Source of the DNA: an uncultured beta proteobacterium
GTDB lineage: Bacteria; Pseudomonadota; Gammaproteobacteria; Burkholderiales; SG8-39
Assembly: GCA_903859155.1 (NCBI GenBank)
Contig: CAIOLO010000019.1
Coordinates: 138,472 to 202,471 of the forward strand
Direction of reading: 5' to 3'
Length of the DNA stretch: 64,000 nt
Shown: positions 3,688 to 19,870 of the stretch, in pieces
Layout of the letters: each line of letters opens with the position of its first letter
Position numbering within the stretch: the first letter of the stretch is position 1
Notes under the pieces: model-generated
What the model was told of the DNA's origin: nothing
Seen by the model: only the letters and a program-made list of their open reading frames with translations
Databases searched by the model: none
Translations under genes and position numbers: made by a program

Positions 3688-3926
3688 CGGTCCCCGACGA
3701 CCGCGTCGCATCGCCCTCGAGGGCGCCAGGCGAGCGACCGGGGTCGGATAGGTTTGATGCAAGTCAATACAGGCGCAAATTTGTGCGTTTGGTCCGTTTA
3801 TCCGCGGATTGATTGGCGCTCGATGCGAGTACCGTCATTGGAATCATTGCTCGACGAGGCCCGTCAAGTCTCTTTGTTGCCTTGGAGATTTTTCACGGGG
3901 CAGCGTGATAGACGGGAAAGGTCCAT
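3688..3926. other. Intergenic leader before the signalling operon
   Basis: This stretch separates the acyl-CoA dehydrogenase from the sensor-kinase run. It holds an FNR-like box at 3754-3767 and no convincing gene. No clear sigma-70 promoter was seen, although the operon must start here or within the small frame at 3927-4130. Confidence 0.5.
3754..3767 (+). promoter_or_regulatory. FNR/Anr-like box upstream of the signalling operon
   Basis: TTGATGCAAGTCAA matches the FNR consensus TTGAT-N4-ATCAA at nine of ten defined positions. It is in the only intergenic region upstream of the sensor-kinase genes, about 360 bases before the first confident start. Similar boxes occur at 19688 and 52549. A clear -10 at the class II distance is not visible. 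Confidence 0.45.
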
Positions 3927-4130
3927 ATGAACTGGATGCTTTTTAGGTGGCGGTCGCTGCATGCCGGGTCGACCGCTTATGCACCGGCCAATCCCGATAT
4001 TGGCAGGCCCAGGATGACCGCCTGCGCATGCCGCCGCCGTATTGTTCGCCTGCTGGCCGTTGGCGCATTTTTTGCGATGCCCTGTTCCTCGTGTGGTGTG
4101 GCGCTGCCGTTGATGCAGGAGGCGTCATGA
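3927..4130 (+). other. Small frame ending in a kinase C-terminus relic
   Basis: A 67-codon frame whose last residues, VALPLMQEAS, resemble the last residues of the kinase at 4127-6619 (VALPLTQEAP). The DNA there, GTGGCGCTGCCG followed by GCAGGAGGCG, also matches the 6587-6613 junction except at a few positions. The rest has no recognisable domain. The stop overlaps the ATG of the next gene. It is most simply the fossil end of a former upstream kinase gene carrying a duplicated ribosome-binding site. It could alternatively be translated as a leader that couples translation into the kinase gene. Confidence 0.45.
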
Positions 4131-6619
4131 CGCGAAATGCGCTTGGCAGCCTGTCCGCGCTGAAGCATGAACCGGCGCTAGCCCAATGGCTGATCCTCGC
4201 GCTTGCGCTGCTGGTCATCGGCGGCATTATCGGCTTGGGGCTTTACAACGAACATCGAGCCATTGATGCGATGGAGCGACAGCGGCTGGGAGTCGAGGCC
4301 AGGATCATCGATGAAAATCTCTCGCGGCAACTGCATGCAATAAATCTTGCACTGGACTCGATTCGCAGCGAACTGCCGGACCTGAAGGCGCATAAGGACG
4401 GCAAGGCGATGCTCAATCGGCGTCTGCGGGCAATGAGCGGCGCCATGCCGGGCCTGCGCACCCTGGGAATACTGGATGCCGGCGGCACGATGAGCATGGC
4501 GAACCGGGAGGAACTTGTCGGGCGCAATTTCCGTGAGCGGGAATATTTTCAAGGCACCCGGCAGAGCCTCGATCCGGCCCTGCTGCATGTGTCGGGGCCC
4601 TTCAGGACGATACTCGGGGTCCTCGGCGTCAATCTGAGCAAGGTGATCCTTGATGAACGCGGCGAGTTCGGCGGTGTCGTCACCGCCACTTTGGACCCGG
4701 AATATTTGAATCAACTGCTGGGGTCGGTTCGCTATGCGCCGGACGTCTGGAGCCATCTGGTCCACGGCAACGGCAAGTTGTTCCTGACGGTACCTGCGCA
4801 GCCTGGCATGGAGGGGGCCGATGTGGACAAGCCCGGCAGTTTCCGCAATCGCCATCTTGAAAGCGGGCAATCTGCCACGGTGATGAGCGGTATTACCCTG
4901 ACCACGGGCGAGGAGCGCCTGATGGCCCAGCGGACCATCAACCCTGCCTATCTGCGCCAGGACAAACCCATGACGCTGGCGGTTTCGCGCGATCTTGCCA
5001 GCATCTTTGCCGTTTGGCGCCGGGATTCGGCCATCCGGGCGGGTTTGTTCGCGTTGCTGGTGCTCGCCTCCGCCCTGGGACTTTTTTTCTATCAGCAGCG
5101 ACAGCGCGCCTACGCCCGGCTTGTGGCAGACCAGGCGGCCGAGCGCAAGCGCGCGCAGACGGAATTGCAGGCAAGCGAATTGCGCTTTCGCACCGTGCTG
5201 CAGGAAATTGCCTCGGTGGCGGTGCAGGGCTACGGCCCTGACGGCACCACTCTCTACTGGAACAAGGCCTCGGCGCTGCTGTACGGCTACGGCGCCGAGG
5301 AGGCGATTGGAAAAAATCTGCTCGATCTCATCATCCCCCCGGAAATGCGAGTGGGCGTCGGCGAGGCCATAGCGCAGATGTTCGCAAGCGGGCGGCCCAT
5401 CCCGGCGGGAGAACTCTCGCTCATGCGCAAGGACGGCTCGCGAGTGAGTGTTTTTTCCAGCCACGCCTATGTGCAGGTTCCCGGAAAAGCAGCCGAAATG
5501 TTCTGCGTGGATATCGATCTCACCGAGCAAAAGCAGGCCGAGCAACGGCTCGAGCGCCTGCTGGCCGAACAAAGGGCCATGCTCGACAATGAGCTCATCG
5601 GCATCGTTACGTTACGGGATCTCAAGTTCGTCTGGGCCAATCCGGCAGCTGAAAAGATGCTCGGTTGGGGGCACGGAGAACTGGCGGGAATCAGTATCCG
5701 CCAATGCTATTCGAGCGATGCGGACTATCAGGCCTTGGTCGCCGCCGCGTATCCGGTTTTCGAAAAAGGCGGACTGTTCCGTTCGCGTGTGGAATTTGTC
5801 CGCAAGGACGGCGGGCGCATCTGGGTGGATGTGAGCGGCGGCCTGCTGGACCGCAGCACCGGGGAAACCCTGTGGGGAATTTCCAATGTTACCGACCAGG
5901 TCAAGGCGCTGAAAGCGCTCGAACGCTCCAATGCCGAACTGCAGCAGTTCACCTATACCGTCTCGCACGACCTGCGCCAGCCCCTGCGCATGATCTCGAG
6001 CTACCTGCAGTTGCTCGAGAGGGCGCTGGCCGACAAACTCGACGCGGAAAAGCGCGAATACCTCAATTTCGCCGTTGATGGCGCGAAGCGTCTTGACCAG
6101 ATGCTGGTGTCACTGCTCGAGTACTCGCGCGTCGGGCGCAGCGGCGAACCGTCAGTCTCGGTGGAGTGCCGCGCGGTGCTTGACGAGGCGCTGTTGTTCC
6201 TGCAACCGGTGGTTGCCGAGGCGCAAGCCGAGATACGTATCGAGGGCGAGTGGCCGCGCATTGTCGTCAGCCGCGACGAAATCCTGCGCCTGCTGCAGAA
6301 CCTGATCGGCAACGCCGTCAAGTTCCGCATCCCCGGGCGCGCACCGGAAATTGTCGTCACCGGCGAAATTGTCGGCCGCGAGTGGCGCGTGTGCGTAACC
6401 GATAACGGCGCCGGTATCGACCCCGACCAGATTGGTCGTTTGTTTCAGGTGTTCCAGCGTCTTCACAGCCGCGCCGACTATGAAGGCAGCGGCGTAGGCC
6501 TGGCGCTTTGCCGCAAGATTGCCGAGCGCCACCACGGGCGCATCTGGGTGGAGTCGGCGGGTAAAGGTCAGGGCAGCCGTTTTTGCGTGGCGCTGCCGCT
6601 GACGCAGGAGGCGCCGTGA
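4127..6619 (+). CDS. Membrane sensor histidine kinase (PDC/dCache-PAS-PAS-HisKA-HATPase)
   Basis: 830-residue sensor kinase. The ATG at 4127 was chosen because GCAGGAGG precedes it and the first membrane segment (about residues 19-40) follows directly; an in-frame extension to 3947 lacks support. A periplasmic PDC/dCache-like region (about 45-295) is followed by a second membrane segment (about 305-325), two PAS domains (about 350-590), a HisKA domain with phosphoacceptor His614 in VSHDLRQPLRMISSYLQ, and an ATPase domain with N-box NLIGNAVKF and G-box DNGAGID. The kinase core is the bacteriophytochrome-like type that usually phosphorylates single-domain receivers such as those at 8781 and 9236. 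The ligand is unknown. Confidence 0.88.
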   Translation: MTRNALGSLSALKHEPALAQWLILALALLVIGGIIGLGLYNEHRAIDAMERQRLGVEARIIDENLSRQLHAINLALDSIRSELPDLKAHKDGKAMLNRRLRAMSGAMPGLRTLGILDAGGTMSMANREELVGRNFREREYFQGTRQSLDPALLHVSGPFRTILGVLGVNLSKVILDERGEFGGVVTATLDPEYLNQLLGSVRYAPDVWSHLVHGNGKLFLTVPAQPGMEGADVDKPGSFRNRHLESGQSATVMSGITLTTGEERLMAQRTINPAYLRQDKPMTLAVSRDLASIFAVWRRDSAIRAGLFALLVLASALGLFFYQQRQRAYARLVADQAAERKRAQTELQASELRFRTVLQEIASVAVQGYGPDGTTLYWNKASALLYGYGAEEAIGKNLLDLIIPPEMRVGVGEAIAQMFASGRPIPAGELSLMRKDGSRVSVFSSHAYVQVPGKAAEMFCVDIDLTEQKQAEQRLERLLAEQRAMLDNELIGIVTLRDLKFVWANPAAEKMLGWGHGELAGISIRQCYSSDADYQALVAAAYPVFEKGGLFRSRVEFVRKDGGRIWVDVSGGLLDRSTGETLWGISNVTDQVKALKALERSNAELQQFTYTVSHDLRQPLRMISSYLQLLERALADKLDAEKREYLNFAVDGAKRLDQMLVSLLEYSRVGRSGEPSVSVECRAVLDEALLFLQPVVAEAQAEIRIEGEWPRIVVSRDEILRLLQNLIGNAVKFRIPGRAPEIVVTGEIVGREWRVCVTDNGAGIDPDQIGRLFQVFQRLHSRADYEGSGVGLALCRKIAERHHGRIWVESAGKGQGSRFCVALPLTQEAP

Positions 6620-8784
6620 CCGGTGCAGCTGCCAGCGGCAATGAGAATCCGGATAGTTCCTGGAAAACCTGGCCTGCATGGGTAATGCTCGGCCTAGGAC
6701 TGCTGGTTACGGTCATTTCCGGCCTGCAGATCAGGCAAAACATCGATCAGGACGCACTGCGTCAGTTTGCTTTCGCCTGCGACCAAGTCACGCTCGAAAT
6801 CAGGGAGCGCCTTGGTGCCCATGCATTGATTCTGCGAGGCGCTGCCGGCCTTTTTGCCGCCTCAAAGGCCGTGGATCGTCAGCAATGGAGCGCCTATGTC
6901 GAGACCTTGCGCGCGGAACAAAGCGTACCCGGCGCGCAGGGCATCGGTTTTGCCCAGGTGATCGCGCCGGGTCAGCTGGCTGCCCATGTGAGCCGTGTCC
7001 GCGGAGAAGGATTCCCGCAATACGAAGTGCGTCCGGCCGGAGTGCGCGAACTCTACACCTCGATTGTCTACCTCGAACCGTTTCGCGACCGCAATCTGCG
7101 CGCGTTCGGATTCGACATGCACTCCGAGCCGGTCCGGCGCGCCGCGATGGAACGGGCGCGCGACAGCGGCGAAGCGGCGCTGTCGGGGAAGGTGGTGCTG
7201 GTGCAGGAGACCGGCAGCGATGTCCAGGCCGGGACCCTCATGTACGTTCCCGTCTATCGCAATGGCATGCCGCGCGACAGTGTCGCGCAGAGGCGGGCGG
7301 CGCTGTTCGGCTGGACCTACAGCCCTTACCGCATGAACGACCTGATGGCCGGCATTCTGGGCCAATGGGAAAGGGACGAGGGCCGAGCAGTAGTCCTGCA
7401 AATTTACGATGGCCTTCAGGCAACGGCCGCCACACTGATGTTCTCCAACAAAGCCGCCGAAGCGGACGGAACGCAGTCATTGTTCAGGCGCCAGCGGATG
7501 TTGAGCATCAACGGCCAGCAGTGGTTGCTGGTTTTCGATCGCACCCGCGCGGCAGCCGGGGGCGGCTATGCGGACCTTTGGTCAGCGCTGCTCGGCGGTC
7601 TGGCGATCAGCGGCCTGCTGTTCGGGCTGATGCGATCGGTGATCAATACGCGCGCCAATGCCGCCCGCATCGCCACCGGGCTGACCGAAAAAATGAGAAA
7701 TCGCGAAGAGTCCTTTCAGGCGGCCGCGCAGTACGCGCGCAGCCTGCTCGAAGCGAGCCTGGACCCACTGGTGACCATCAGCGCAGCCGGCAAGATCATC
7801 GATGTCAACGTGGCCACGGAACAGGCGACGGGCCTCGACAGGGAGCAACTGATCGGCAGCGATTTCGCCGACTATTTCACCGATCCGGCGAAAGCGCATG
7901 AAGGCTATCTGAGGGTATTTTCACAGGGGTCCGTGACCGATTACCCGTTGGCCATCCGCCATGTGTCCGGCCGGATTACCGAGGTGCTCTACAACGCCAG
8001 CCTGTACCGCGACGCGGGCGGCAAGGTTCAGGGCGTTTTTGCCGCGGCGCGTGATATTACCCAGCGCAAACTCGCCGAAGATGCGCTGCGGCGTTCCAAT
8101 GCCGATCTGCAGCGCTTTGCCGAAGTCACCGCGCATCACCTGCAGGAACCGGCGCGGCGCATAGCCACTTACGCCGCGCGGCTGAGAGAACAACTGGGCG
8201 ACCTGCGCGACGATTCCGAAGCCCGGTTGTCACTCGAATTCATCGGGCAGCAGGCGCACCGCCAGCAGCAACTGTTGCTCGATGTCGAGCGCTACCTGGC
8301 CTCCGCCCACCCGCGCGGCGAGGTCGGATTGGCCGACGCGAACCGTGCGCTCGCCGCAATCCTGGCAAGATCGCAACAGCGGATCAGCGCTGCCGGCGCC
8401 CAAATCACGCTGGGCCATCTGCCGCCCGCCCGCATCGACATGCCGCGCCTGGATGAGGTATTTTCGGTGGCACTGGACAACGCCCTTGCCCACGGTTGTG
8501 GCGGCCAGTCCTTGCGGATCATCATCGAGGGCGAGCGCCAGGCAGACAAAGTGCGCTACAGCGTGAGCGACAACGGTCCCGGCATCGAAGAGCAGTATCG
8601 CGACCGGGTGTTCCGAATCTTCGAACGCTTGTCCTCAAGCCAGGCAGCCACCGGCATCGGGCTCGCGATCCTGCGTCGCGTCACGGAAAGTTGCGGCGGT
8701 CGCGCCTGGCTGGAAGAAGCACCGGGTGGCGGCTGCCGCCTGTTGTTTGAATTGCCCGCCGTTGATATAGGAGAACCCCATTGA
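6616..8784 (+). CDS. CHASE-domain sensor kinase with an altered H-box
   Basis: 722-residue protein starting at a GTG that overlaps the previous stop (GTGA), with GCAGGAGG upstream. It has one membrane segment at about residues 20-37, a periplasmic CHASE-like domain (about 75-290, including PVYRNGMP), a second membrane segment (about 320-342), a PAS domain (about 374-485), and a HisKA/HATPase core. The H-box reads AHHLQEPARR at 506-515 instead of the usual SHDLQEPLR: His507 is kept, but the acidic residue after it is replaced by His508. That acid normally assists phosphotransfer, so catalysis may be altered. The ATPase motifs DNALAHG and SDNGPGIEE are intact. Confidence 0.85.
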   Translation: MTGAAASGNENPDSSWKTWPAWVMLGLGLLVTVISGLQIRQNIDQDALRQFAFACDQVTLEIRERLGAHALILRGAAGLFAASKAVDRQQWSAYVETLRAEQSVPGAQGIGFAQVIAPGQLAAHVSRVRGEGFPQYEVRPAGVRELYTSIVYLEPFRDRNLRAFGFDMHSEPVRRAAMERARDSGEAALSGKVVLVQETGSDVQAGTLMYVPVYRNGMPRDSVAQRRAALFGWTYSPYRMNDLMAGILGQWERDEGRAVVLQIYDGLQATAATLMFSNKAAEADGTQSLFRRQRMLSINGQQWLLVFDRTRAAAGGGYADLWSALLGGLAISGLLFGLMRSVINTRANAARIATGLTEKMRNREESFQAAAQYARSLLEASLDPLVTISAAGKIIDVNVATEQATGLDREQLIGSDFADYFTDPAKAHEGYLRVFSQGSVTDYPLAIRHVSGRITEVLYNASLYRDAGGKVQGVFAAARDITQRKLAEDALRRSNADLQRFAEVTAHHLQEPARRIATYAARLREQLGDLRDDSEARLSLEFIGQQAHRQQQLLLDVERYLASAHPRGEVGLADANRALAAILARSQQRISAAGAQITLGHLPPARIDMPRLDEVFSVALDNALAHGCGGQSLRIIIEGERQADKVRYSVSDNGPGIEEQYRDRVFRIFERLSSSQAATGIGLAILRRVTESCGGRAWLEEAPGGGCRLLFELPAVDIGEPH

Positions 8785-9227
8785 ATGCCACGGCACAATT
8801 GTTTGCCATACTGCTGGTCGAGGATGAAGCGGCGGATGCCCATCTGGTCAAAGCCGCGTTGGCTGAAAACCATATTCTGGCGGACCTGCACCATGTGCTG
8901 GACGGCCGCGAGGCGCTCGAATACCTGCGACGCCAGGGGCCGCGCTACGCGACGGCGCGGCGCCCGAACCTGATCCTGCTCGATCTCAACATGCCGCGCA
9001 TGGACGGGCGCGAATGTCTCGTCGCACTAAAGTCGGATCCGGATCTGGCCGATATACCAGTGGTGGTACTGACTACTTCCGCGGTTGAACGTGACGTGCT
9101 CGCCTCCTACAAGCTTGGCGCCGCGGGATTCATTACCAAGCCGCTGGATGCGCTCCAGTTTATTGCCGCCATCCGCGAACTTGGCGAGTACTGGTTCGAC
9201 CTGGTGCGACTGCCGCAACGAAAGTAG
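8781..9227 (+). CDS. Single-domain response regulator (Rcp1-like)
   Basis: A receiver domain of 148 residues with no output domain. It starts at TTG, overlapping the stop of the CHASE kinase gene, with AGGAG upstream. The acidic pocket is at Glu14-Asp15, the phosphoacceptor is Asp68 in ILLDLNMPRMDG, and the conserved Lys lies in FITKPLD. The C-terminal YWFDLVRLP tail is typical of receivers paired with phytochrome-like kinases. It probably receives phosphate from one or more kinases of this operon and acts by protein contact or as a phosphate carrier. Confidence 0.9.
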   Translation: MNATAQLFAILLVEDEAADAHLVKAALAENHILADLHHVLDGREALEYLRRQGPRYATARRPNLILLDLNMPRMDGRECLVALKSDPDLADIPVVVLTTSAVERDVLASYKLGAAGFITKPLDALQFIAAIRELGEYWFDLVRLPQRK

Positions 9228-9235
9228 GCCTGGCC

Positions 9236-9682
9236 ATGAGCGAGCAGAGGGACCTGCGTGTACTGATAGTGGAGGACGAGGCGGGGGACGCACGCCTGAC
9301 GCAGCTGGCGCTGCAGAAATGCGGCTTTGCCGTCGACACGAGCGTTGCCCTCGAGGGCCTTGAGGCGCTGCAGTTGTTGCGCCGCCAGGGTGAGCGCTTT
9401 CGCCACGCGCAGCGCCCCGACCTGATCCTGCTCGATCTCAAGATGACCGGCCTGGGCGGCCTGGGTTTCCTGGTCGCGGTGAAAGAGGACGATCAGCTGT
9501 GCTCCATTCCGGTTGTCATCGTCACCAGCTCGCAGCTCGACGCCGACGTGCTCGACGCCTATCGTTGCGGTGCTGCGGGCTATGTGCGCAAGTCGGCGGA
9601 CTTCGGCGAATTCCTGGCAGGCATCAGGATCCTGGGGCAGTACTGGTTCCATCTGGCGCGATTGCCGGTGAATCTGGGGTGA
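9236..9682 (+). CDS. Second single-domain response regulator, divergent active-site loop
   Basis: 148-residue receiver, evidently a tandem paralogue of the preceding gene (same length and the same YWFHLARLP tail). The acidic pair Glu13-Asp14 and phosphoacceptor Asp67 in LILLDLKMTGLGG are present, and the Lys is in YVRKSAD. The loop after the aspartate reads MTGLGG instead of the usual MPxMDG, so partner choice or kinetics may differ from the first receiver. It starts at ATG nine bases after the previous stop, and its own stop overlaps the GTG of the next kinase. Confidence 0.88.
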   Translation: MSEQRDLRVLIVEDEAGDARLTQLALQKCGFAVDTSVALEGLEALQLLRRQGERFRHAQRPDLILLDLKMTGLGGLGFLVAVKEDDQLCSIPVVIVTSSQLDADVLDAYRCGAAGYVRKSADFGEFLAGIRILGQYWFHLARLPVNLG

Positions 9683-12117
9683 ACGCAGTGAGCCGTGCAG
9701 CTCGCATCAACACAGTCGAGCCCCTCAGATATGGCGCGGTGTTGTACCTCACCCTGATCGCCGCCGGCCTGGCCGGAAATTATTTCAAGTATCCGATTTT
9801 TCTCAATATCGATTTCCTGTTCGGCAGCCTGTTTGCCATGCTGGCGCTGCAATGCTTCGGCACCGGTCGGGGCGTTGCGGCGGGAGCGCTGATCGCCAGC
9901 TATACCTATGTTCTCTGGAATGAACCCTACGCCTTCGTCATCATGACCGCCGAGGTGGCAATGGTCGGCTGGCTGGTGATTCACCGCAAAACGGGTCTGG
10001 TGCTGGCCGATGCGCTCTACTGGCTCTTCATCGGCATGCCGCTGGGGTACTTTTTCTACAATATCGTGCTGGATGTTTCACCCGGCAGCGAATACATCAT
10101 CATGACCAAGCAGGCGGTCAACGGCATCGCCAATGCTTTGCTTGCGCGGCTGATCTTTACCGGATTCGCGCTTCGATCACGCACCACCCTGATCGGATAT
10201 CGGGATGTCATCTACAACCTGCTTGCCTTTTTCGCGCTGTGCCCGGCGCTGATCCTGCTGGTGATTGCGAGCCGGGTGGATTTCAATGAAACCGACCACA
10301 ATATTCGCGCCAATCTTCACCAGGCCAATCACAGCGTGGCAAGCCGCATCGATGTCTGGGTGCAAAACAGGACAGCCTCCATTGTCAACCTGGCCGGGCT
10401 GGCGGCGACGCTCACGCCGCGCGAAATGCAACCCAGGCTGGAGCAGGCACTCAATAGCGATGTCAATTTTCAGCGTATCGGCATGCGCGACGCGGAGTCG
10501 ACCATCATCGCCTATGCGCCGCCTATCGACGAATTCGGCCAGTCCAATATTGGCAAGAAATTCGCGGAACGGCCCTATATCGCGGAGCTCAGGCGCACCC
10601 GCAAACCGATGCTCGCGGAAGTGGTGATGGGAAGAATAGGCACGCCGGAGCCGGTTGCCATTCTGCTGACGGCGGTTATCAAGCAAGGAGAATTCGCCGG
10701 CTATGTCAACTCCGTCCTGAGGCTTGAACAGGTGCGCGACTATCTGGAGAAGAGCGCCGAGGGCAGCGCCATGCAATACACCCTGCTCGACAAGATCGGC
10801 AACACCATCCTGAGCAATCGCAAGGAGCAGAAGGTGATGAGCCCGCTGCTTCGCGGCGAGGGGAATCTGAATCTCCTGGATAAAGACATTTCACAATGGA
10901 TTCCATCATTGCCGCCCCAGACTTCCATATCGGAGCGCTGGAAATCGTCCTTTTATGTTACCGAGAGCCCGGTCGGCAGTCCGGGCGGATGGACGCTGGT
11001 TCTGGAGCAGCCGGTGGCGCCGTTTCAGAAAATACTTTATGCGCGTTATACCGAAGCGCTGGCGCTGGTGCTGCTGATTTTGTTCGCCGCGCTGGTGCTG
11101 GCCGAATTGCTTAGCCGCCGGGTGGTGGCGAGCAACGAGCAGTTGAGCGAGTTGACGCAGAGTCTGCCGGCTGCTCTGGGCGCGGGCGAAGATTCTGTCT
11201 GGCCGGTCAGCGCCATCGCCGAATCAAACAGGCTGATCGGCAGTTTCAAGGAAATGTCGCGTTCGCTGGAGGCCCAGTTCAGCGCCAACCGGCAGTTGAA
11301 TGCAACGCTGGAGCGGCGAGTCGAGGAGAGGACCCGCGCGCTTGCATTGAGCAACACCGAGCTCAAGCGCTCCAACGCCGACCTGGAGCAGTTCGCCTAC
11401 GCCGCCTCGCACGATATGAGCCAGCCGCTGCGCATGATTTCCAGTTACCTGCAATTGCTGGAGGTGGAACTGGCGCCAACGCTCAACGCCGAAATGCGCC
11501 AGCACTTTCAATTTGCCACCGAAGGCGCGCTACGCATGGACCAGATGCTGAACGCGCTGCTCGAATATTCCCGAATCGGCCGCGTGAACGAAGGAATGGC
11601 ATTGATCGAAAGTCGTGAAGTCGTGAACGAAGCGTTGCACTTTCTGGGCACCGAGATTGCGCAGGCGGCGGCCGAAGTGCGCATCGATGGCGAGTGGCCG
11701 CCGATCTTCGCCTGTCGCGACGAAATCCTGCGCTTGTTGCAGAACCTGATCGAGAATGCGCTGAAATTCCGCCTGGAAGGTCGCAACCCGGATATTGTCC
11801 TGAATTCCCAAGCCAGCGACGGCGAATGGCGTGTTGCGGTGCGCGACAACGGCGTGGGCCTGTTGCCGGGCCAGGAGGAGCGCCTGTTCAAGGTATTCGA
11901 GCGGCTGCAGTCGCGCTCGCGCTATCCCGGAACCGGCATCGGACTGGCCTTGTGCCGCAGGATTGTCGAGCATCATAATGGGCACATTCGGGTAGAGTCG
12001 CCAGGCGAGAATCTGGGCTGTGTGTTTATTTTCAGCCTGCCGGTATTAGGCAAAACGGGTGCTGCGGAGGCCTCCGGCGAAACCGGCAGCCCCGGCGGCA
12101 ATGGGGATACTCCATGA
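9679..12117 (+). CDS. Membrane sensor histidine kinase with multi-span N-terminus and dCache-like domain
   Basis: About 812 residues. The GTG at 9679 overlaps the preceding stop; another in-frame GTG at 9688 is possible. The N-terminal third is hydrophobic with several membrane segments resembling MASE-type modules. It is followed by a periplasmic dCache-like region, another membrane segment (around DNA 11050-11105), a linker, HisKA with ASHDMSQPLRMISSYLQ, and an ATPase domain with NLIENALKF and RDNGVGL. The kinase core is closely similar to that of the first kinase (the same EYSRxGR and DEILRLLQNLI segments), indicating an internal duplication. It ends by overlapping the next ATG. Confidence 0.86.
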   Translation: MNAVSRAARINTVEPLRYGAVLYLTLIAAGLAGNYFKYPIFLNIDFLFGSLFAMLALQCFGTGRGVAAGALIASYTYVLWNEPYAFVIMTAEVAMVGWLVIHRKTGLVLADALYWLFIGMPLGYFFYNIVLDVSPGSEYIIMTKQAVNGIANALLARLIFTGFALRSRTTLIGYRDVIYNLLAFFALCPALILLVIASRVDFNETDHNIRANLHQANHSVASRIDVWVQNRTASIVNLAGLAATLTPREMQPRLEQALNSDVNFQRIGMRDAESTIIAYAPPIDEFGQSNIGKKFAERPYIAELRRTRKPMLAEVVMGRIGTPEPVAILLTAVIKQGEFAGYVNSVLRLEQVRDYLEKSAEGSAMQYTLLDKIGNTILSNRKEQKVMSPLLRGEGNLNLLDKDISQWIPSLPPQTSISERWKSSFYVTESPVGSPGGWTLVLEQPVAPFQKILYARYTEALALVLLILFAALVLAELLSRRVVASNEQLSELTQSLPAALGAGEDSVWPVSAIAESNRLIGSFKEMSRSLEAQFSANRQLNATLERRVEERTRALALSNTELKRSNADLEQFAYAASHDMSQPLRMISSYLQLLEVELAPTLNAEMRQHFQFATEGALRMDQMLNALLEYSRIGRVNEGMALIESREVVNEALHFLGTEIAQAAAEVRIDGEWPPIFACRDEILRLLQNLIENALKFRLEGRNPDIVLNSQASDGEWRVAVRDNGVGLLPGQEERLFKVFERLQSRSRYPGTGIGLALCRRIVEHHNGHIRVESPGENLGCVFIFSLPVLGKTGAAEASGETGSPGGNGDTP

Positions 12118-13739
12118 GCGACCTGTTAGAGCAATCGATGTCGATACTGGTGGTCGAGGACGATCCGGGCGATTTCGGCCTGATCCGGGTTCACCTGGGC
12201 GCTCCGGGGTGGCGGCATGAGGGCGCCGGGAAAGCCGTGCTCTGGGCAACGTCGCTGGCCGAAGGCGTGGCCATGGCCCGGCGCGACAAGCCCGATGTGA
12301 TGATCCTCGATCTGACTTTGCCGGACTCTTCGGGCCTCGCCACGGTGAGGGCCATGCGCGCCGCGCTGCCGGATGTGCCCGTGGTGGTGCTCACCGGGCG
12401 GGATGACAACGAGCTTGCACTGGCCGCCTTGCAGGCGGGAGCGCAGGATTATCTGATCAAGGGACAGTTCGAGCACGATGCGCTGGGCCGCGCCGTGCGC
12501 CATGCGCTGGTGCGCGCCAGGCTCGAGGGGCAGCTGCGCGAATCGCAGAAGATGCAGGCCATCGGCACGCTGGCCGGCGGAATAGCACGGGAATTCAACA
12601 ACGCGGTGGCGACCATACTGGGTAATGTCGAACTGGCGCGCGAGGATGTGGGCAGCAATACCCTGGCGCTGGAGAGCCTGGAGGAAATCCGCAAAGCCGG
12701 CACCCGTGCGCGCGACCTGGTGCAGCAGATACTTGCCGTCAGCCGCAGGCAACCTACCGAACGCAAGCTGACGGCGCTCGGCCCTGTCCTAGAGGAGACG
12801 GCGCAACTGCTGCGCGCGGCGTTGCCCTCGCGCCTGGCGCTGGAGGTGCGCTGTGCCCCCGGGGTGCCAGCAGTGCTGGCCGATGCCTCGCAGATAAAGC
12901 AAATCCTCCTCAATCTTGCTACCAACGCCATGCAGGCGATCCAGGGCGGCCCCGGGCACATCGCCATTCGGCTCGACACCGTGGTGCTCGATGCTGCCGC
13001 GGTGAAATCCAATCCCGCGTTGCATGATTTGCAGTCCCGGCATGCGAGGCACCTGGCGCGAGCCGCGCGGATTACCATGAGCGACGACGGGCCGGGCATC
13101 GATCCGGCCACTGTGGGGCGCCTGTTCGAGCCGTTTTTCAGCACCAAAAAAGGGGATCACGCCACCGGGCTGGGTTTGGCCGTGGTGCGTGGCATCGTGC
13201 TGGGACACGATGGCGCAATTGCGGTGGAGAGCACGCCCGGCAAGGGCGCGACCTTCACGATTTACCTGCCCGAAGGCGAGGCGCTCGCGGGCGCGCAGGC
13301 CTCCGCAAAAGGCACACCGATTGCGGCGCCGGTATCGTCACCGGGTGCCAGCGCGCGCATCCTATATATTGACGACGATGATTCGCTGGTACTGCTGGTC
13401 AAGCGCCTGCTGGAGCGGCGCGGTTTGCGCGTTACGGGCTACACCGAACCGGCTGACGCACTGGCCGCGCTGCGCGCAGATCCTGCGGGATTCGACCTGG
13501 TGGTGAGCGACTACAATATGCCGGGCATGTCGGGCCTGGACGTGGCTCGCGAAGTGCGCGCGATCCGTGCCGATCTGGCGGTGGCGATAGCCTCGGGATT
13601 CATCGACGAGGATTTGCGGGCCCAGGCCTTCGGAGTGGGCGTGCGGGAACTGGTCTTTAAGGCCGATACGGCGGAAGATTTGTGCGAAGCGCTCGTCCGG
13701 CTGGCGCAGATGGTCGGGGTAGCATCGGGGTCTCATTGA
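12114..13739 (+). CDS. REC-HisKA-HATPase-REC hybrid lacking the phosphoacceptor histidine
   Basis: 541 residues, cytoplasmic. An N-terminal receiver (Asp in MILDLTLPDSSG, Lys in YLIKGQ) is followed by a dimerisation/phosphotransfer region, an ATPase domain (NLATNAMQAI, SDDGPGID, GLGLAVV) and a C-terminal receiver (VVSDYNMPGMSG). In the H-box the expected HDFNN reads REFNN: Arg159 (CGG at 12588-12590) replaces the histidine and Glu160 the aspartate. The paralogue at 13766 keeps HDFNN at the same place. It probably cannot autophosphorylate, so it may act as a phosphatase, scaffold or phosphate sink between its two receivers. ATG overlaps the upstream stop. Confidence 0.88.
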   Translation: MSDLLEQSMSILVVEDDPGDFGLIRVHLGAPGWRHEGAGKAVLWATSLAEGVAMARRDKPDVMILDLTLPDSSGLATVRAMRAALPDVPVVVLTGRDDNELALAALQAGAQDYLIKGQFEHDALGRAVRHALVRARLEGQLRESQKMQAIGTLAGGIAREFNNAVATILGNVELAREDVGSNTLALESLEEIRKAGTRARDLVQQILAVSRRQPTERKLTALGPVLEETAQLLRAALPSRLALEVRCAPGVPAVLADASQIKQILLNLATNAMQAIQGGPGHIAIRLDTVVLDAAAVKSNPALHDLQSRHARHLARAARITMSDDGPGIDPATVGRLFEPFFSTKKGDHATGLGLAVVRGIVLGHDGAIAVESTPGKGATFTIYLPEGEALAGAQASAKGTPIAAPVSSPGASARILYIDDDDSLVLLVKRLLERRGLRVTGYTEPADALAALRADPAGFDLVVSDYNMPGMSGLDVAREVRAIRADLAVAIASGFIDEDLRAQAFGVGVRELVFKADTAEDLCEALVRLAQMVGVASGSH

Positions 13740-13765
13740 AAATATTTGCCTTTTAAGTTCTGCCG

Positions 13766-16060
13766 ATGAAATTCAACTACCGCAGCCTGTCGGTCCGGGC
13801 GTACTTGTTGATACTGGTGCTCTCGGTCATCCTGCCGTCGGTCGGGGTTTTCGCCTGGCACGTGGCTCAGGAACAGCAGGCTGCGCTCAAGGGGGCCGCC
13901 GACAGGTTGAAGGATCTGGCCGACCAGGCGGCAGGTGAACTCGGCGACCTTATTCGCGACAATGAGAGGGTGCTCGGTCGGCTGGCCGCACGGCCCCAGG
14001 TCAGGGCGCTGGACGCGAAAAAATGCGACCCGATTCTTCCCGATTACGTCAGCCTGCACCCGGAGTTCAGCACGCTCGCGATACGCGACGTGCATGCCAA
14101 TATTGTCTGCACCCTGCTGAACAATCCCCCCACCGCGGAACAGATCAGGCAAACCGCCTGGTTCCAGGATGCCACGCGCAGCGGCAAATTTACGCTGGGC
14201 GATGCGACGCAGAACCTCAGGACGAACCGCTGGGTGTCCATTTCCGCGTTTCCGGTATTGGACAGCAGGGAGAGGCTGTCCGGGTTTGTTTTCTTTTCCA
14301 TGGATTTGCTCAAACTGGGCCAGCAGTTGTTCCGCGCCGTCCCCAGAAACATCCTCATCGATGTCGTCGATCGCCAGGGCAATTTCCTGCTGCGCTCGGG
14401 CGGTCCCGGAAACTGGCTCGGCCACGCCGTGGCCCCGGGGGATGCCGCCGCGATCAAGGGGCAACGCGAAGGCTTCTTTGCCTCGAGCGGCGTCGACGGC
14501 GTGCTCAGCCAGGTCGCTTTTGCCGCCGTTCCCGACACCGAGTGGCATGTGCTGGCCAGGCTGCCCGAGGCGGAAATTTTCGCCGCGACACGGGCGCGGC
14601 TGTTTGGCAGCATCGTTGTCGGAATCGCCGTTCTGGGGCTGGTGCTGGCGCTCGCGTTCTGGATCGGCACGGCGATTGTCAATCCGGTAATTCAACTGGC
14701 GGGCGCCGCCGAAAGAATCGCCCTGGGTGACAGCCATACTCGGGCTCCGGTCACCGGACCGGTGGAAGTGGCCGCGGTCGCGCAGCAATTCAACCATATG
14801 CTCAATGTGCGCGAGCGCGCCGAAGTCGCGCGTGCCTCGCTCGAGGAGCAATTGCGCGAATCGCAAAAAATGCAGGCCATCGGCACGCTGGCCGGGGGCA
14901 TCGCGCACGATTTCAACAATATCATTGCCACCATCCTGGGCAATGTGGAACTCGCGCGCCAGGACGCGCAGGCCAATCCACTGGCGCTGCAGAGCATTGA
15001 AGAAATAGAAAAGGCCGGCGGGCGCGCGCGCGATCTGGTGCGGCAGATCCTGTCCTTCAGCCGACGCCAGCCCACCGAGCGCAAGCCGACCGCGCTTGGC
15101 CCTGTTGTCAAGGAATCCGCGCGCCTGTTGCAATCCGCGCTGCCGGCGCGCGTGGTCCTCGAGGTACAGTGCGGCACCGACGTGCCCGCGGTTCTCGCCG
15201 ATGTCACGCAGATCGAGCAGGTGCTGATCAACCTGGCCACCAATGCCATGCAGGCGATGGCCGGCGCGCCCGGGCGCATCGTCATACGGCTGGACACGGT
15301 GATGCTTGACCAGCCCCAGGCGGGTTCGGGTGCCGGACTTCCGGGTTCCTCCGGGAGAGCGGCGGCACCCACGGTGCGCCTGTCGGTCAGTGACGACGGA
15401 CCGGGTATGGATGCGGCCACGGCCGATCGGATCTTCGAGCCGTTTTTCACCACCAAGCCGGTCAATGAGGGTACCGGCCTGGGTCTATCGGTGGTGCACG
15501 GCATAGCGCAGAGTCACGATGGCTCGATTGAAGTCGACACCGCGCCGGGCAAAGGGGCAACCTTTACACTTTATCTGCCAGCGGCCAAGGCGGAGGAAAT
15601 TCGGTTCGGCATACCAGAGCGCCAGCAGCGCGAATTGGCCGCGGTCGGGGATCCGGCTGCGGCACCGCGTTCGGCTACCGGAGTGCGCATCCTCTGCATC
15701 GACGATGATGAATCGCTGGTGCTGTTGGTCAAGCGCATGCTGGAGCGGCGCGGCTTCCAGGTCAGCGGTTACACCGACCAGGGCGAAGCGCTGGCCGCGC
15801 TGCGCGCCGACCCCGATTCGATCGATCTGGTGGTGAGCGACTACAACATGCCGGGCATGTCGGGGTTGGACGTGGCGCGTGAAGTGCACGCGATCCGTGC
15901 CGACCTGCCGGTGGCTATCGCCTCGGGGTTCATCGACGAGGCCTTGAGCACCCAGGCCAGTGGAGCCGGCGTGCGGGAACTGATTTTCAAGGCGGATGCG
16001 GCGGAAGACCTGTGCGACGCGTTCGAGCGCCTGGCCAGTGCAATCGGTAGAAAAATGTGA
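13766..16060 (+). CDS. Membrane hybrid sensor kinase (dCache-HAMP-HisKA-HATPase-REC)
   Basis: 764 residues. The first membrane segment is at about residues 9-29, a periplasmic dCache-like sensor follows, the second membrane segment is at about 279-302, and HAMP at about 303-355. HisKA has His381 in GGIAHDFNNIIATILGN, the ATPase domain has NLATNAMQAM and SDDGPGMD, and a receiver follows from about 640 (VVSDYNMPGMSG, FKADAAEDL). The kinase-receiver half is a close paralogue of the hybrid at 12114, but with an intact H-box. It could supply phosphate to the receivers of that degenerate neighbour. It starts with ATG 26 bases after the previous stop, the largest gap in the operon. Confidence 0.88.
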   Translation: MKFNYRSLSVRAYLLILVLSVILPSVGVFAWHVAQEQQAALKGAADRLKDLADQAAGELGDLIRDNERVLGRLAARPQVRALDAKKCDPILPDYVSLHPEFSTLAIRDVHANIVCTLLNNPPTAEQIRQTAWFQDATRSGKFTLGDATQNLRTNRWVSISAFPVLDSRERLSGFVFFSMDLLKLGQQLFRAVPRNILIDVVDRQGNFLLRSGGPGNWLGHAVAPGDAAAIKGQREGFFASSGVDGVLSQVAFAAVPDTEWHVLARLPEAEIFAATRARLFGSIVVGIAVLGLVLALAFWIGTAIVNPVIQLAGAAERIALGDSHTRAPVTGPVEVAAVAQQFNHMLNVRERAEVARASLEEQLRESQKMQAIGTLAGGIAHDFNNIIATILGNVELARQDAQANPLALQSIEEIEKAGGRARDLVRQILSFSRRQPTERKPTALGPVVKESARLLQSALPARVVLEVQCGTDVPAVLADVTQIEQVLINLATNAMQAMAGAPGRIVIRLDTVMLDQPQAGSGAGLPGSSGRAAAPTVRLSVSDDGPGMDAATADRIFEPFFTTKPVNEGTGLGLSVVHGIAQSHDGSIEVDTAPGKGATFTLYLPAAKAEEIRFGIPERQQRELAAVGDPAAAPRSATGVRILCIDDDESLVLLVKRMLERRGFQVSGYTDQGEALAALRADPDSIDLVVSDYNMPGMSGLDVAREVHAIRADLPVAIASGFIDEALSTQASGAGVRELIFKADAAEDLCDAFERLASAIGRKM

Positions 16061-17421
16061 ACGACCTCTTCAAGCAGGCGATCAAAATACTGGTGCTCGA
16101 GGACGATCCCGGGGACTTCGGCTTGATCCATGCCCACTTGCGCCGCGCGGGTTTTGATCACGAGGAGGCTGAGAGTGACGCTGGCGGCCGCGGGGAAACG
16201 GTTGTCTGGGCCAAGACGCTGGCACAGGGCCTGGACCTTGCCAGGGGCGGCAAGCCCGATGTGGTGCTGCTCGACCTTTCTTTGCCGGATTCAACCGGGC
16301 TTGCCACGGTGCGGGCAATGCGTGCTGCGCTTCCCGATGCGCCATTGGTGGTGCTTACCGGGAACGATGACAACAACCAGGCCCTGGCCGCGCTCCAGGC
16401 GGGCGCCCAGGATTATCTGATCAAGGGACGCTTCGATCACGATGCGCTGGGGCGCGCGGTTCGCCACGCGCTGGTGCGCGCGAGTCTGGAGGCCCGGTTG
16501 CGCCTGTTCGAGGTGGCCTTGAATTCCGCGGCCAACGCGATACTGATTACCGACATCGATGCCCGCATTGAATGGGCCAACCCGGCGTTCGTGCAGTTGA
16601 CGGGATACTCGCTGGAGGAGTCGCTGGGCCTCAGTCCGGGATTTTTGATGAATTCCGGCAGGCAGAGTCCGCCGTTCTTCCGGGAAATGTGGGAAGCCAT
16701 ACTGTCCGGCCGGGTCTGGCGCGGCGAACTGGTCAACCAGCGCAAGGACGGATCTCTCTATGACGCTTCGCTGATCATCTCCCCGGTTATCGACGGCGAC
16801 GGCGCCACCCGTCATTTCGTCGCCATCCTGCAGGACATCACCGAACGCAAGCAGATTGAAGACCAGATTCACCAGATGGCGTTTTCCGATCCGCTCACCC
16901 GGCTGCCCAACCGCCGCCTGCTCATAGACCGCCTGAGCCAGGTCATGGCGGCGAGCCAGCGAAGCGGTTTGCATGGCGCGCTGATGTTTCTCGACCTGGA
17001 CAATTTCAAGGCGCTGAATGACGCCCATGGGCATGATGTCGGCGATCTGCTGCTGATCGTCGCGGCGGACCGGCTGAAAAAATGCGTGCGCGCGATGGAT
17101 ACCGTGGCGCGCTTCGGTGGCGATGAATTCGTGGTGATGCTCAGCGAGCTGGATGTGAACCGGGACGAATCGGTCAACCAGGCGGGCCTCGTGGCCGAGA
17201 AGATACGCGTGGCCCTGGCCGATCCCTATCAGCTGACCATCAGGCGCGAGGGCAAGTCGGAAGTACTGGTCGAACACCGCTGCACGGCCAGCATCGGCGT
17301 GACTTTGTTCTTGGATCATGAGGCCGGTCAGGAGGACATCCTCAAATGGGCGGACACGGCGATGTATCGGGCCAAAGAGGCCGGCCGCGATACCATCCGT
17401 TTTCATGAACCCGGACCATGA
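16057..17421 (+). CDS. Diguanylate cyclase response regulator (REC-PAS-GGDEF)
   Basis: 454 residues, the apparent output protein of the operon. The receiver is close to the N-terminal receiver of the 12114 hybrid (EDDPGDFGLI, LLDLSLPDSTG, YLIKGRF). A PAS domain spans about 150-265 and the GGDEF domain about 275-445. The active-site GGDEF is intact at 354-358, and RAMD at 345-348, five residues before it, is a typical I-site for product inhibition. It should make cyclic di-GMP from GTP when phosphorylated. GTG start overlaps the previous stop. No EAL or HD-GYP phosphodiesterase is encoded nearby. Confidence 0.93.
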   Translation: MNDLFKQAIKILVLEDDPGDFGLIHAHLRRAGFDHEEAESDAGGRGETVVWAKTLAQGLDLARGGKPDVVLLDLSLPDSTGLATVRAMRAALPDAPLVVLTGNDDNNQALAALQAGAQDYLIKGRFDHDALGRAVRHALVRASLEARLRLFEVALNSAANAILITDIDARIEWANPAFVQLTGYSLEESLGLSPGFLMNSGRQSPPFFREMWEAILSGRVWRGELVNQRKDGSLYDASLIISPVIDGDGATRHFVAILQDITERKQIEDQIHQMAFSDPLTRLPNRRLLIDRLSQVMAASQRSGLHGALMFLDLDNFKALNDAHGHDVGDLLLIVAADRLKKCVRAMDTVARFGGDEFVVMLSELDVNRDESVNQAGLVAEKIRVALADPYQLTIRREGKSEVLVEHRCTASIGVTLFLDHEAGQEDILKWADTAMYRAKEAGRDTIRFHEPGP

Positions 17422-17453
17422 CGGCGGGGGCTCTTCGAGCATCGGCCGGCCGG

Positions 17454-17951
17454 CTACGACATTTCCTGGATCGGAAAAATCATCATGGTGGTGCTGCCAT
17501 GCGCGTACAGCCTGCCCGAGGCGTCCGTGATGCGCCCGTCGGCGGTGGCGATGCGTTTGCCGGGATGGATCACCCTGCCTTCACAGCGCAATTTCCCGGT
17601 TTCCACGGTGATGGCGCGCACGTAGTTGATTTTCAGCTCCAGCGTGGCCGCGCCATAGCCGGCGGGCATGGTCACCTGCACCGCGCCGCCCATGCAGGTA
17701 TCGAGCAGGGTGCTGGCCAGCCCGCCATGGGTGGAGCCGAGCACGTTGTAATGCTGTTCTCCGGGCATGCATTCGACCACGATGGAGCCGTCGCCGATCT
17801 CGGTGGTGACGAATCCCATCAGCCGGGACATCGGCGAGGCCTGGATCTTGCCCGACATGGTGGCCTCGATGTACTCGCGGCCGCTCATGTGCTGGACTGT
17901 CTGGCGGTTGGTGGAGGCGTCCCAGGATATTGTCAGACTGCGTGTTGCCAA
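17454..17951 (-). CDS. PaaI-type hotdog-fold acyl-CoA thioesterase
   Basis: 165 residues with the hotdog thioesterase signature HGGLASTLLDTCMGGAV and a preceding loop HYNVLGSTHGG, as in the PaaI/YdiI group that hydrolyses aromatic or short acyl-CoA thioesters. It is convergent with the diguanylate cyclase (about 30 bases between them) and lies about 30 bases downstream of the ETF-QO gene on the same strand, so the two probably share a transcript. The substrate cannot be assigned, but the setting with ETF-QO and the CoA-transferase suggests acyl-CoA turnover. Confidence 0.82.
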   Translation of the reverse strand: MATRSLTISWDASTNRQTVQHMSGREYIEATMSGKIQASPMSRLMGFVTTEIGDGSIVVECMPGEQHYNVLGSTHGGLASTLLDTCMGGAVQVTMPAGYGAATLELKINYVRAITVETGKLRCEGRVIHPGKRIATADGRITDASGRLYAHGSTTMMIFPIQEMS

Positions 17952-17981
17952 GCGGATTCCTTTCGGTGACGGGTCACACTC

Positions 17982-19628: not shown

Positions 19629-19687
19629 GGTCTGTCCGTTCGAGGATTTGGAAAACGCTAACTTTGCCCTTGCGAGCGGCTGTTCTT

Positions 19688-19701
19688 TTGATTTGGATCA
19701 C
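19688..19701 (+). promoter_or_regulatory. FNR-like box between ETF-QO and CoA-transferase genes
   Basis: TTGATTTGGATCAC matches TTGAT-N4-ATCAA at nine of ten positions. It lies in the divergent intergenic region, so it could act on either gene. It is centred about 54 bases upstream of the TATAAT at 19749 on the plus strand. Confidence 0.5.
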
Positions 19702-19748
19702 GTGCCTGGCGGAAAAGCTTTGCGCTGCGGCCGGTTCATGGGGGATTA

Positions 19749-19754
19749 TATAAT
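19749..19754 (+). promoter_or_regulatory. Consensus -10 box upstream of the CoA-transferase
   Basis: A perfect TATAAT in an AT-rich patch about 115 bases before the ATG at 19871. No -35 hexamer with 16-18 base spacing is evident, which is compatible with an activator-dependent promoter and the FNR-like box upstream. Confidence 0.5.
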
Positions 19755-19870
19755 GCGCTTCGATTTGCAGCCGCTGCCCGGACGGGCCGTGACAGCTGCG
19801 CCGGCACACTGCAACCGAGTCCATGACCGCGGACAGTTTTCGTTTCCACTCATTTTTAGGTGATGCTCCG

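Follow-up and report, generated by a model that had tools for sequence, protein, structure and literature searches.

Eight genes at positions 4127-17421 of a 64,000-nucleotide stretch of contig CAIOLO010000019.1 (the window, to which all positions refer), from an uncultured beta proteobacterium (assembly GCA_903859155.1), probably encode a multi-input two-component system with one cyclic di-GMP output. As judged from sequence, a kinase-type sensor (HK1) would be opposed in this system by a phosphatase-type sensor (HK2), and the whole set seems to be an insertion in a resident cyclase gene. It is proposed more tentatively, as a possibility and not as the favoured outcome, that the genes represent a widespread switch with divided labour. 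HK1 would be its kinase and HK2, a member of a clade with an AHH motif, its phosphatase; both would carry swappable sensors and act through a single-domain receiver (REC3) on a protein with receiver and GGDEF domains (REC..GGDEF). Here, the switch would have seized a resident cyclase.

All eight genes are read on the forward (+) strand, and domains are those of Pfam. HK1 (g1, 4127-6619) is a membrane kinase with a dCache domain (weak, below cut-off), two PAS domains, HisKA and HATPase, and the kinase-type H-box SHDLRQP. HK2 (g2, 6616-8784), a predicted sensor phosphatase, displays CHASE, PAS and HATPase domains and the H-box AHHLQEP. REC3 (g3, 8781-9227) is a receiver of the Rcp1/RcpA type that consists of a single domain and has the usual acidic residues, Asp, Thr and Lys, and the lone receiver REC4 (g4, 9236-9682; 51% identity) is its probable duplicate. 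HK5 (g5, 9679-12117) has a membrane domain resembling ECF S-components (9721-10272), then dCache, HisKA and HATPase, with the H-box SHDMSQP. The sixth gene (g6, 12114-13739; REC-HisKA-HATPase-REC) has Arg in place of the phospho-accepting His (R159, codon at 12588), and g7 (13766-16060) encodes a membrane hybrid kinase (dCache-HAMP-HisKA-HATPase-REC) with an intact H-box. The last gene, g8 (16057-17421), encodes REC-PAS-GGDEF.

The coordinates, domains and packing agree with a preliminary description of these genes as an overlapping, same-strand set of eight. Stop/start overlaps of 4 bp are found at five of the seven junctions (GTGA at g1/g2, g4/g5 and g7/g8, TTGA at g2/g3, ATGA at g5/g6), and the other two are spaced (g3/g4 by 8 bp, g6/g7 by 26 bp). 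The overlaps become six when a 67-codon leader open reading frame (ORF; 3927-4130, +) is counted, whose stop overlaps the g1 start (ATGA). The term phosphorelay, used in that description, finds no support in its strict His-Asp-His-Asp sense: in a Pfam search limited to the eight proteins, no Hpt domain was detected. A more fitting description is a set of several sensors with two lone receivers and a single cyclase response regulator. The kinase genes are linked to a REC-GGDEF gene with intact motifs, as expected of a two-component system with such a regulator: g8 has RFGGDEF and an I-site, and the acidic residues, Asp and Lys are present in the REC sequences. Three features are new relative to the preliminary description, namely the H+1 change in g2, the leader ORF and the insertion into a resident gene.

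That the core order recurs is better evidence than the packing of the genes. By sequence comparison, this core, HK1-HK2-REC followed by REC..GGDEF (in some cases with EAL), is found again in further families and orders. The neighbourhoods were searched mostly for relatives of the window's own domains, so that domains of other kinds may have been missed. At E 1e-33, REC3 matches are found in 19 of 399 genomes of the order, own genome included, with 20 of the 22 rows outside it. Eight of these show at least 62% identity and come from four other families; all eight loci were read. HK2 lies directly before REC3 in every one (G370 has two HK2 genes), HK1 lies further upstream in all seven that are testable (L102 ends first), with genes intervening in L096, L097, L100 and L101, and REC..GGDEF follows REC3 in seven, L098 being the exception. 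Outside the order, the complete core is present in loci L154 and L155, and L146 has a core with an HK1 fragment.

More distant REC3 relatives have a different setting. Nine of the 12 rows at 54% identity or less were fetched; an HDLQEP kinase stands beside the receiver in eight, seven of which also have REC..GGDEF, L105 has neither, and none of the nine has an AHH kinase. Within the family, relatives at 44-51% identity are found at 14 loci in 13 genomes besides the own genome and G074, each with an adjacent kinase (H-box SHDLQEP in 13, SHDLRAP in one) and, within the short loci read, with REC..GGDEF in 12. These surveys of order and family indicate that a three-gene HK-REC-cyclase set is common and that the four-gene set with HK2 is a distinct version. 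The preliminary description had held that a gene order unique to this genome would speak against it; full-length g6 is indeed found in the own genome only, among 61, but the core order occurs elsewhere. Its statement that no phosphodiesterase is present is likewise correct for this operon, but not for the module at large, as 4 of 11 other core outputs have an EAL domain with its motifs.

The closest relative of the longer arrangement is in family genome G074, the only one of 97 other family genomes with a complete g5 (64%); a search of the 399 genomes of the order at E 1e-100, among which G074 is not listed, found g5 in no other genome. Contig C198 of G074 carries an HK1 tail, REC3, REC4, HK5 and a REC-PAS-PAS-GGDEF-EAL gene, and HK2 is on contig C232. 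The two loci (L043 on C198, L182 on C232) both terminate in the same HK1 sequence (120 bases shown). The original order may have been HK1-HK2-binding protein-HK1-REC3-REC4-HK5-cyclase, broken by an assembly repeat. The joining of the two contigs was not adopted, because identical ends suggest it but do not show it, and it is excluded from the counts. An uncultured beta proteobacterium contig (L055) displays HK1-HK2-REC3-REC4 and then the start of HK5 at the contig end, so that REC4 is present in G074 and L055 as well. The use of g5 as an operon marker in named genomes was rejected: of 13 loci, 11 of them annotated (L045-L055), L055 alone has the operon context, and the other well-matching loci have the membrane-dCache sensor on different outputs. 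In plasmid records, HK2 matches are all below 60% identity; the Paraburkholderia caribensis plasmid match is an HK(SHDLQEP)-REC-REC set without any GGDEF detected by domain comparison. Neither the gene order nor the AHH clade is described in titles and abstracts of open-licence PMC papers searched with a few terms, which is weak evidence of absence.

The H-box of HK2 sets its transmitter apart. The phospho-accepting His (codon at 8134) is followed by His at H+1 (codon at 8137), and Glu is at H+4, which corresponds to the H-box of DrBphP type (His at H+1, Glu or Gln at H+4). In 11 aligned HK2 sequences, the two His residues (H33, H34) and P38 are invariant, and E37 is nearly so. No HisKA domain is detected in g2 at E 0.001; HisKA is under the Pfam cut-off or absent in six HK2 proteins, and three HK1 proteins pass. 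In a tree of 63 transmitter rows (58 different, with near copies among them), one branch (100/100) has all AHH rows to one side of it, and another (96/97) the HDxRQP rows together with the two HK5 rows. When 369 genomes of the class were searched with an HK2 profile, 38 had matches; 30 of the 46 listed rows came with loci, which display AHH in eight cases (own included), HD in 21 and HQ in one. Scores break between 286 and 217 bits, and all five rows above the break are AHH; three AHH loci (L121, L132, L133) fall below it, so that score alone does not mark the clade. Within the family, the own genome (357 bits) and G074 (331 bits) lie above the break, and the next row has 191 bits.

Among solved structures related to HK2, the bacteriophytochrome entries 8sgk and 8avv rank second and third; their H-box also reads HH..EP. 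Both are presumably DrBphP of Deinococcus radiodurans, as they fit its H532, H533 and E536. In the excerpted text of PMC8292422, kinase activity of DrBphP is undetectable and the protein dephosphorylates the single-domain receiver DrRR; the H+1 residue is His in DrBphP and acidic in the majority of kinases, and the Agp1 variant D529H is inactive. At H+4 of DrBphP, phosphatase activity is reduced by Ala, abolished by Thr, Asn or Asp and kept by Gln (E536Q), according to the same excerpts (PMC8292422). By analogy, which is not proof, HK2 would be a phosphatase-type sensor without kinase activity. It carries CHASE and PAS domains and no phytochrome photosensory module.

Some AHH genes deviate from the common arrangement. 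One locus (L101:12571-15631) displays a tandem HK2 pair, with AHHLIGP in one copy. The HK1 fragment of L146 lies upstream of its HK2, the HK2 gene of L147 is split over two frames, in L149 two HK1 genes accompany HK2 but the stretch read contains no REC3, and L150 has neither. Genome G681 has a full-length relative of g2 that stands alone (L148:8475-10640; CHASE 62%, PAS 70%, HK2 part 48%), the 16 kb read containing no close HK1, REC3 or cyclase; its sequence makes a free-standing sensor phosphatase possible.

The receivers and HK5 can be placed in a similar way. REC3 matches 5te9 (1e-35), RcpA (6e-32) and Rcp1 (9e-30), as against 5e-12 for DivK, and its residues 9 or 10 to 145 or 146 align with RcpA, Rcp1 and DrRR. 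It is thus of Rcp1/RcpA type and lies outside the DivK family, whose match is far weaker; DrRR (6xvu) belongs to the same receiver group. The HK5 transmitter groups with those of HK1 in the tree, and by sequence g4 resembles a duplicate of g3, and g5 one of the g1 transmitter. Two ideas on HK1 were dropped. A loss of phosphatase activity through Gln at H+4 was abandoned since DrBphP E536Q kept activity. A repeated co-variation of the HK1 H-box (HDxRQP with HK2, HDLQEP without it) is seen in the counts, but it represents one tree group and is broken by L154 and L155.

Transmitters are constant and sensor parts vary, which is what a shared output would select for. The HK2 sensor is CHASE-PAS in the window and L148, Tll0287-like in L055, G074, L149 and one L101 copy, LapD_MoxY_N-HAMP in L096, L097 and L100, sCache_3 in the other L101 copy, PAS in L103 and L146, and in L154 a relative (44%) of the g5 membrane domain. 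The claim of the preliminary description that several inputs converge on one cyclic di-GMP enzyme thus gains comparative support, in that transmitters, receiver and REC..GGDEF recur together while the sensors differ. Periplasmic binding-protein genes (Phosphonate-bd) are found between HK1 and HK2 in L096, L100 and L101, and an ABC_sub_bind gene lies between HK2 and a second HK1 in G074 (L182). Their position inside the module suggests an input fed by binding proteins.

Comparison with related genomes indicates where the operon was inserted. Genes for an acyl-CoA dehydrogenase and ETF-QO were each searched for in 41 family genomes. Both are on one contig in 20 (own included), and in 18 they face each other with gaps of 25-5438 bp; the gap is 14300 bp in the own genome and 19808 bp in G024, where both genes are on one strand. 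The 3001 bp gap of congener G001 contains a luciferase-like and a hydrolase-like ORF, identified by eye, and no match to g8. Congener G002 has a single gene between the dehydrogenase gene and the thioesterase/ETF-QO pair, an intact dCache-HAMP-PAS-GGDEF gene of 682 residues. Both ends of this resident gene can be recognized in the window. On the left, 3754-3974 (+) aligns with its 5′ region and first ∼16 codons (L158 864-1073) with a score of 95, against a maximum of 28 in 200 shuffles of the second sequence and 35 for the G001 gap control. On the right, 16833-19755 is collinear with G002 in one piece at 84% DNA identity, starting between the PAS and GGDEF domains of g8.

The two parts of g8 have different nearest relatives among the loci compared, from which three own-genome loci were left out. 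The REC-PAS part (16057-16832, +) is closest to the G074 module cyclase (69% identity over 262 residues) and has only short, weak matches to the resident cyclase. The GGDEF part (16833-17421, +; RFGGDEF, I-site RxxD) is closest to the resident GGDEF of G002 (77% protein identity, against 57% for the G074 module). By these sequence affinities, g8 is a chimera of a module REC-PAS and a resident GGDEF. In the leader ORF, the start codon of the resident gene is joined to 34 bases copied from the 3′ tail of g1 (4098-4131, +), 30 of which equal 6587-6620 (score 48, against a maximum of 27 in 300 shuffles, 17 for the g5 tail and 22 for the g2 tail). This copy is a probable remnant of a lost upstream HK1 gene. 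The simplest reading of the sequence is that a single insertion replaced the resident sensor and PAS domain and took over the upstream region of the gene. In the process, the incoming module may have lost an EAL domain, such as that present in G074; the resident gene that matches the g8 GGDEF is without EAL. No clear break was seen when foreign base composition was looked for, and no description of the capture of a resident cyclase by a whole sensor operon was found in open-licence PMC papers searched with a few terms.

The gene order, H-boxes, co-occurrence, chimera and remnants read in the sequence permit a mechanism in which every activity, specificity and ligand is inferred. HK1 and its derivative HK5 would phosphorylate REC3/REC4, the g8 receiver, or both. 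HK2, ruled by its own ligand, would take phosphate off the same receivers, and net g8 phosphorylation would set cyclic di-GMP synthesis, with REC3/REC4 as a shared adaptor, sink or feedback element. The g7 product would be a second kinase type added to the set, and g6, accepting no phosphate at its DHp domain but keeping two receivers, would most likely be a decoy receiver or a phosphatase. The module would have entered the resident membrane dCache-HAMP-PAS-GGDEF gene, probably using its 5′ region, with its REC-PAS fused to the resident GGDEF.

The loss of the phospho-accepting His in g6, which the preliminary description had recorded as a degenerate hybrid, is borne out by the H-box GGIAREFNN (codon CGG at 12588, against CAC in GGIAHDFNN of g7). 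As CAC to CGG requires two base changes, a single sequencing error would not explain it. One g6 receiver shares 71% identity with the g8 receiver. In the phosphatase-led DivK/PleD network, a PdhS2 allele that lacks the phospho-accepting His is reported still to complement (excerpts of PMC7003649), which bears on g6 too. The g6 and g7 kinases belong to a different subgroup, and neither gene is inside any of the other modules read.

Several observations weigh against a kinase/phosphatase division of labour in an inserted module. One core locus (L098) has no cyclase beside it, and the kinases accompanying AHH in L154 and L155 are of HDLQEP type. REC3 of G074 is immediately preceded by an HK1-like kinase, HK2 being on another contig. 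Some AHH genes lack the context: in seven class loci outside the own genome, an HK1-type gene is directly upstream in five (one of them with a fragment), REC3 directly downstream in four and REC..GGDEF present in three. The AHHLIGP copy of L101 lacks Glu at H+4. HK2 retains the phospho-accepting His, N box and G boxes, so that kinase activity is possible. The disabling effect of His at H+1 comes from one protein, Agp1, and DrBphP H533D does not regain kinase activity in the excerpted text of PMC8292422, so that this His is not the sole cause of the DrBphP state. HK1 in turn has Gln at H+4, the residue that kept phosphatase activity in DrBphP; by this analogy HK1 may be bifunctional and the split incomplete. 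REC3 and the g8 receiver are only 34% identical and may be served by different kinases. The insertion junctions rest on the assembly of a 172-contig draft genome.

Four other explanations were considered. It is unlikely, though less so than the remaining three, that HK1 and HK2 are both ordinary kinases whose inputs sum on the cyclase, the HK2 H-box being unusual but working, perhaps with the second His as a base. The retained phospho-accepting His and ATP-binding boxes agree with this, as does the pairing of HK1 and HK2 across families; but H+1 is acidic in most sensor kinases and a change to His inactivated Agp1 (PMC8292422, excerpted), the HK2 HisKA score is under the Pfam cut-off or absent, and the His-His pair is conserved in aligned members of the clade. 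Slightly less probable again is that HK2 is a pseudokinase acting by binding, for instance by pairing with HK1 in a heterodimer or by serving phosphorylated REC3 as an allosteric target. DivL is such a target of DivK. HK2 is paired with HK1 in most loci read, the signalling helix starts alike in both, and loci group alike in the HK1 and HK2 parts of the tree, all of which would suit a binding partner, but HK2 retains the ATP-site residues and most members also have Glu at H+4, as would be expected of an ATP-dependent phosphatase.

The remaining two explanations concern the operon as a whole and are considered quite improbable. One is that it represents a chance stack of unrelated two-component genes with their own partners and promoters. 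The full eight-gene order has not been found elsewhere (full-length g6 occurring, among 61 genomes, in this one only), g6 and g7 come from a different kinase subgroup, and a promoter scan does no better than shuffles; six 4-bp overlaps, the leader's included, and a core order that recurs in several families and orders speak against it. Marginally more improbable still is that insertion and chimera are an assembly artefact, with two genomes joined at the conserved PAS-GGDEF linker. The genome is a draft of 172 contigs with 3% contamination, and the junction lies within a conserved motif, but both ends are in the same resident gene, the left remnant is decayed and fused to the kinase-tail copy, the base composition has no clear break, the reading frame is intact and the site is well inside a 205-kb contig.

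The proposed module with opposed sensors resembles several known systems in part. With DrBphP-DrRR of D. radiodurans it shares His at H+1, Glu at H+4 and a partner receiver of the single-domain group of REC3; DrBphP is a phytochrome, whereas HK2 is membrane-bound with CHASE-PAS and stands beside a kinase-type sensor and a cyclase, and no partner kinase or cyclase of DrBphP-DrRR is described in the excerpts of PMC8292422. The DivJ/PleC-DivK-PleD and Agrobacterium PdhS networks likewise have kinase/phosphatase sensors that act on a single-domain receiver and REC-GGDEF (PMC10790692, PMC7003649, both excerpted). REC3, unlike the DivJ/PleC-DivK-PleD receiver, is nearer Rcp1/RcpA than DivK, all parts are in one operon, and no CtrA branch is known. 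In CfcA-CfcR of Pseudomonas putida, a sensor kinase is needed for the activity of a REC-PAS-GGDEF-EAL regulator, but CfcA is one hybrid kinase encoded apart from CfcR in KT2440, with no phosphatase-type partner described in the excerpts of PMC4951495.

Pairs of Cph1-Rcp1 type consist of an HDLQEP-type kinase and an Rcp1-type receiver, and the three-gene HK-REC-GGDEF relatives are like them in this; the module differs in having no phytochrome, a linked cyclase and an extra AHH sensor. Sensor kinases are usually judged to be kinases from their sequence. If the proposed division of labour is true, a sign rule could be read from sequence, with HK1 sensors raising cyclic di-GMP synthesis and HK2 sensors lowering it, and the module would make available for in vitro study a compact equivalent of the DivJ/PleC-DivK-PleD network, encoded in one operon. 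The insertion offers a natural comparison, as orthologous GGDEF domains at one locus of two congeners are joined to a membrane dCache-PAS sensor in one and to a receiver domain in the other. If this is true, a single-input sensor was turned into a multi-input enzyme controlled by phosphorylation.

Across 13 other rows, mostly from beta- and deltaproteobacterial contigs, the N-terminal membrane domain of g5 shows 61-73% conservation in 12 and 36% in L154. Pfam gives no match for the window's domain and a weak ECF_trnsprt match in 2 of 14 rows. A structural model (pLDDT 82, pTM 0.78) is predicted to be nearest to ECF S-components. The first 21 VIA-align rows are vitamin or metal transporter components, most of them titled ECF or S-components; the best Z is 16.8 (RibU, 2.8 Å, 151 aligned) against 9.1 for the next group, where unrelated helical models can reach ∼14, and the Foldseek E value is only 6.5e-3. 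HmrC of Caulobacter, a five-helix protein like an ECF S-component, has been proposed as a sensor in a cyclic di-GMP pathway (PMC11481889, excerpted) and is a precedent for such a sensor, although it is a separate protein and the g5 domain is fused to dCache and a kinase. Fusions of the g5 domain to dCache and various outputs are also found in Geobacteraceae, Desulfobacteraceae and betaproteobacterial contigs.

The operon is taken to end with g8, because a candidate ninth gene (ORF 17418-17969, +), which is without family, overlies a 4HBT thioesterase gene on the other strand (17454-17951); it was rejected. A promoter scan gave four promoter-like sites against 4.1 in shuffles, which is not decisive and leaves a single promoter unsupported, and a terminator scan gave 21 against 14.5 (standard deviation 3.7), also not decisive; at gathering score, Rfam yields no match anywhere in the window. 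GGDEF matches in the genome amount to 18 rows, counting that of g8 (two of the rows, on C108, being parts of a single frame), and EAL matches to six, none of them on the operon's contig, so that the operon is one of many cyclic di-GMP inputs. A second GGDEF protein is encoded on the same contig ∼137 kb before the window (G000:C19:1401-1913, L007), its domain 65% identical to that of g8. A sulfate-permease family protein with STAS and a C-terminal cyclic-nucleotide-binding domain is encoded at 41054-43264.

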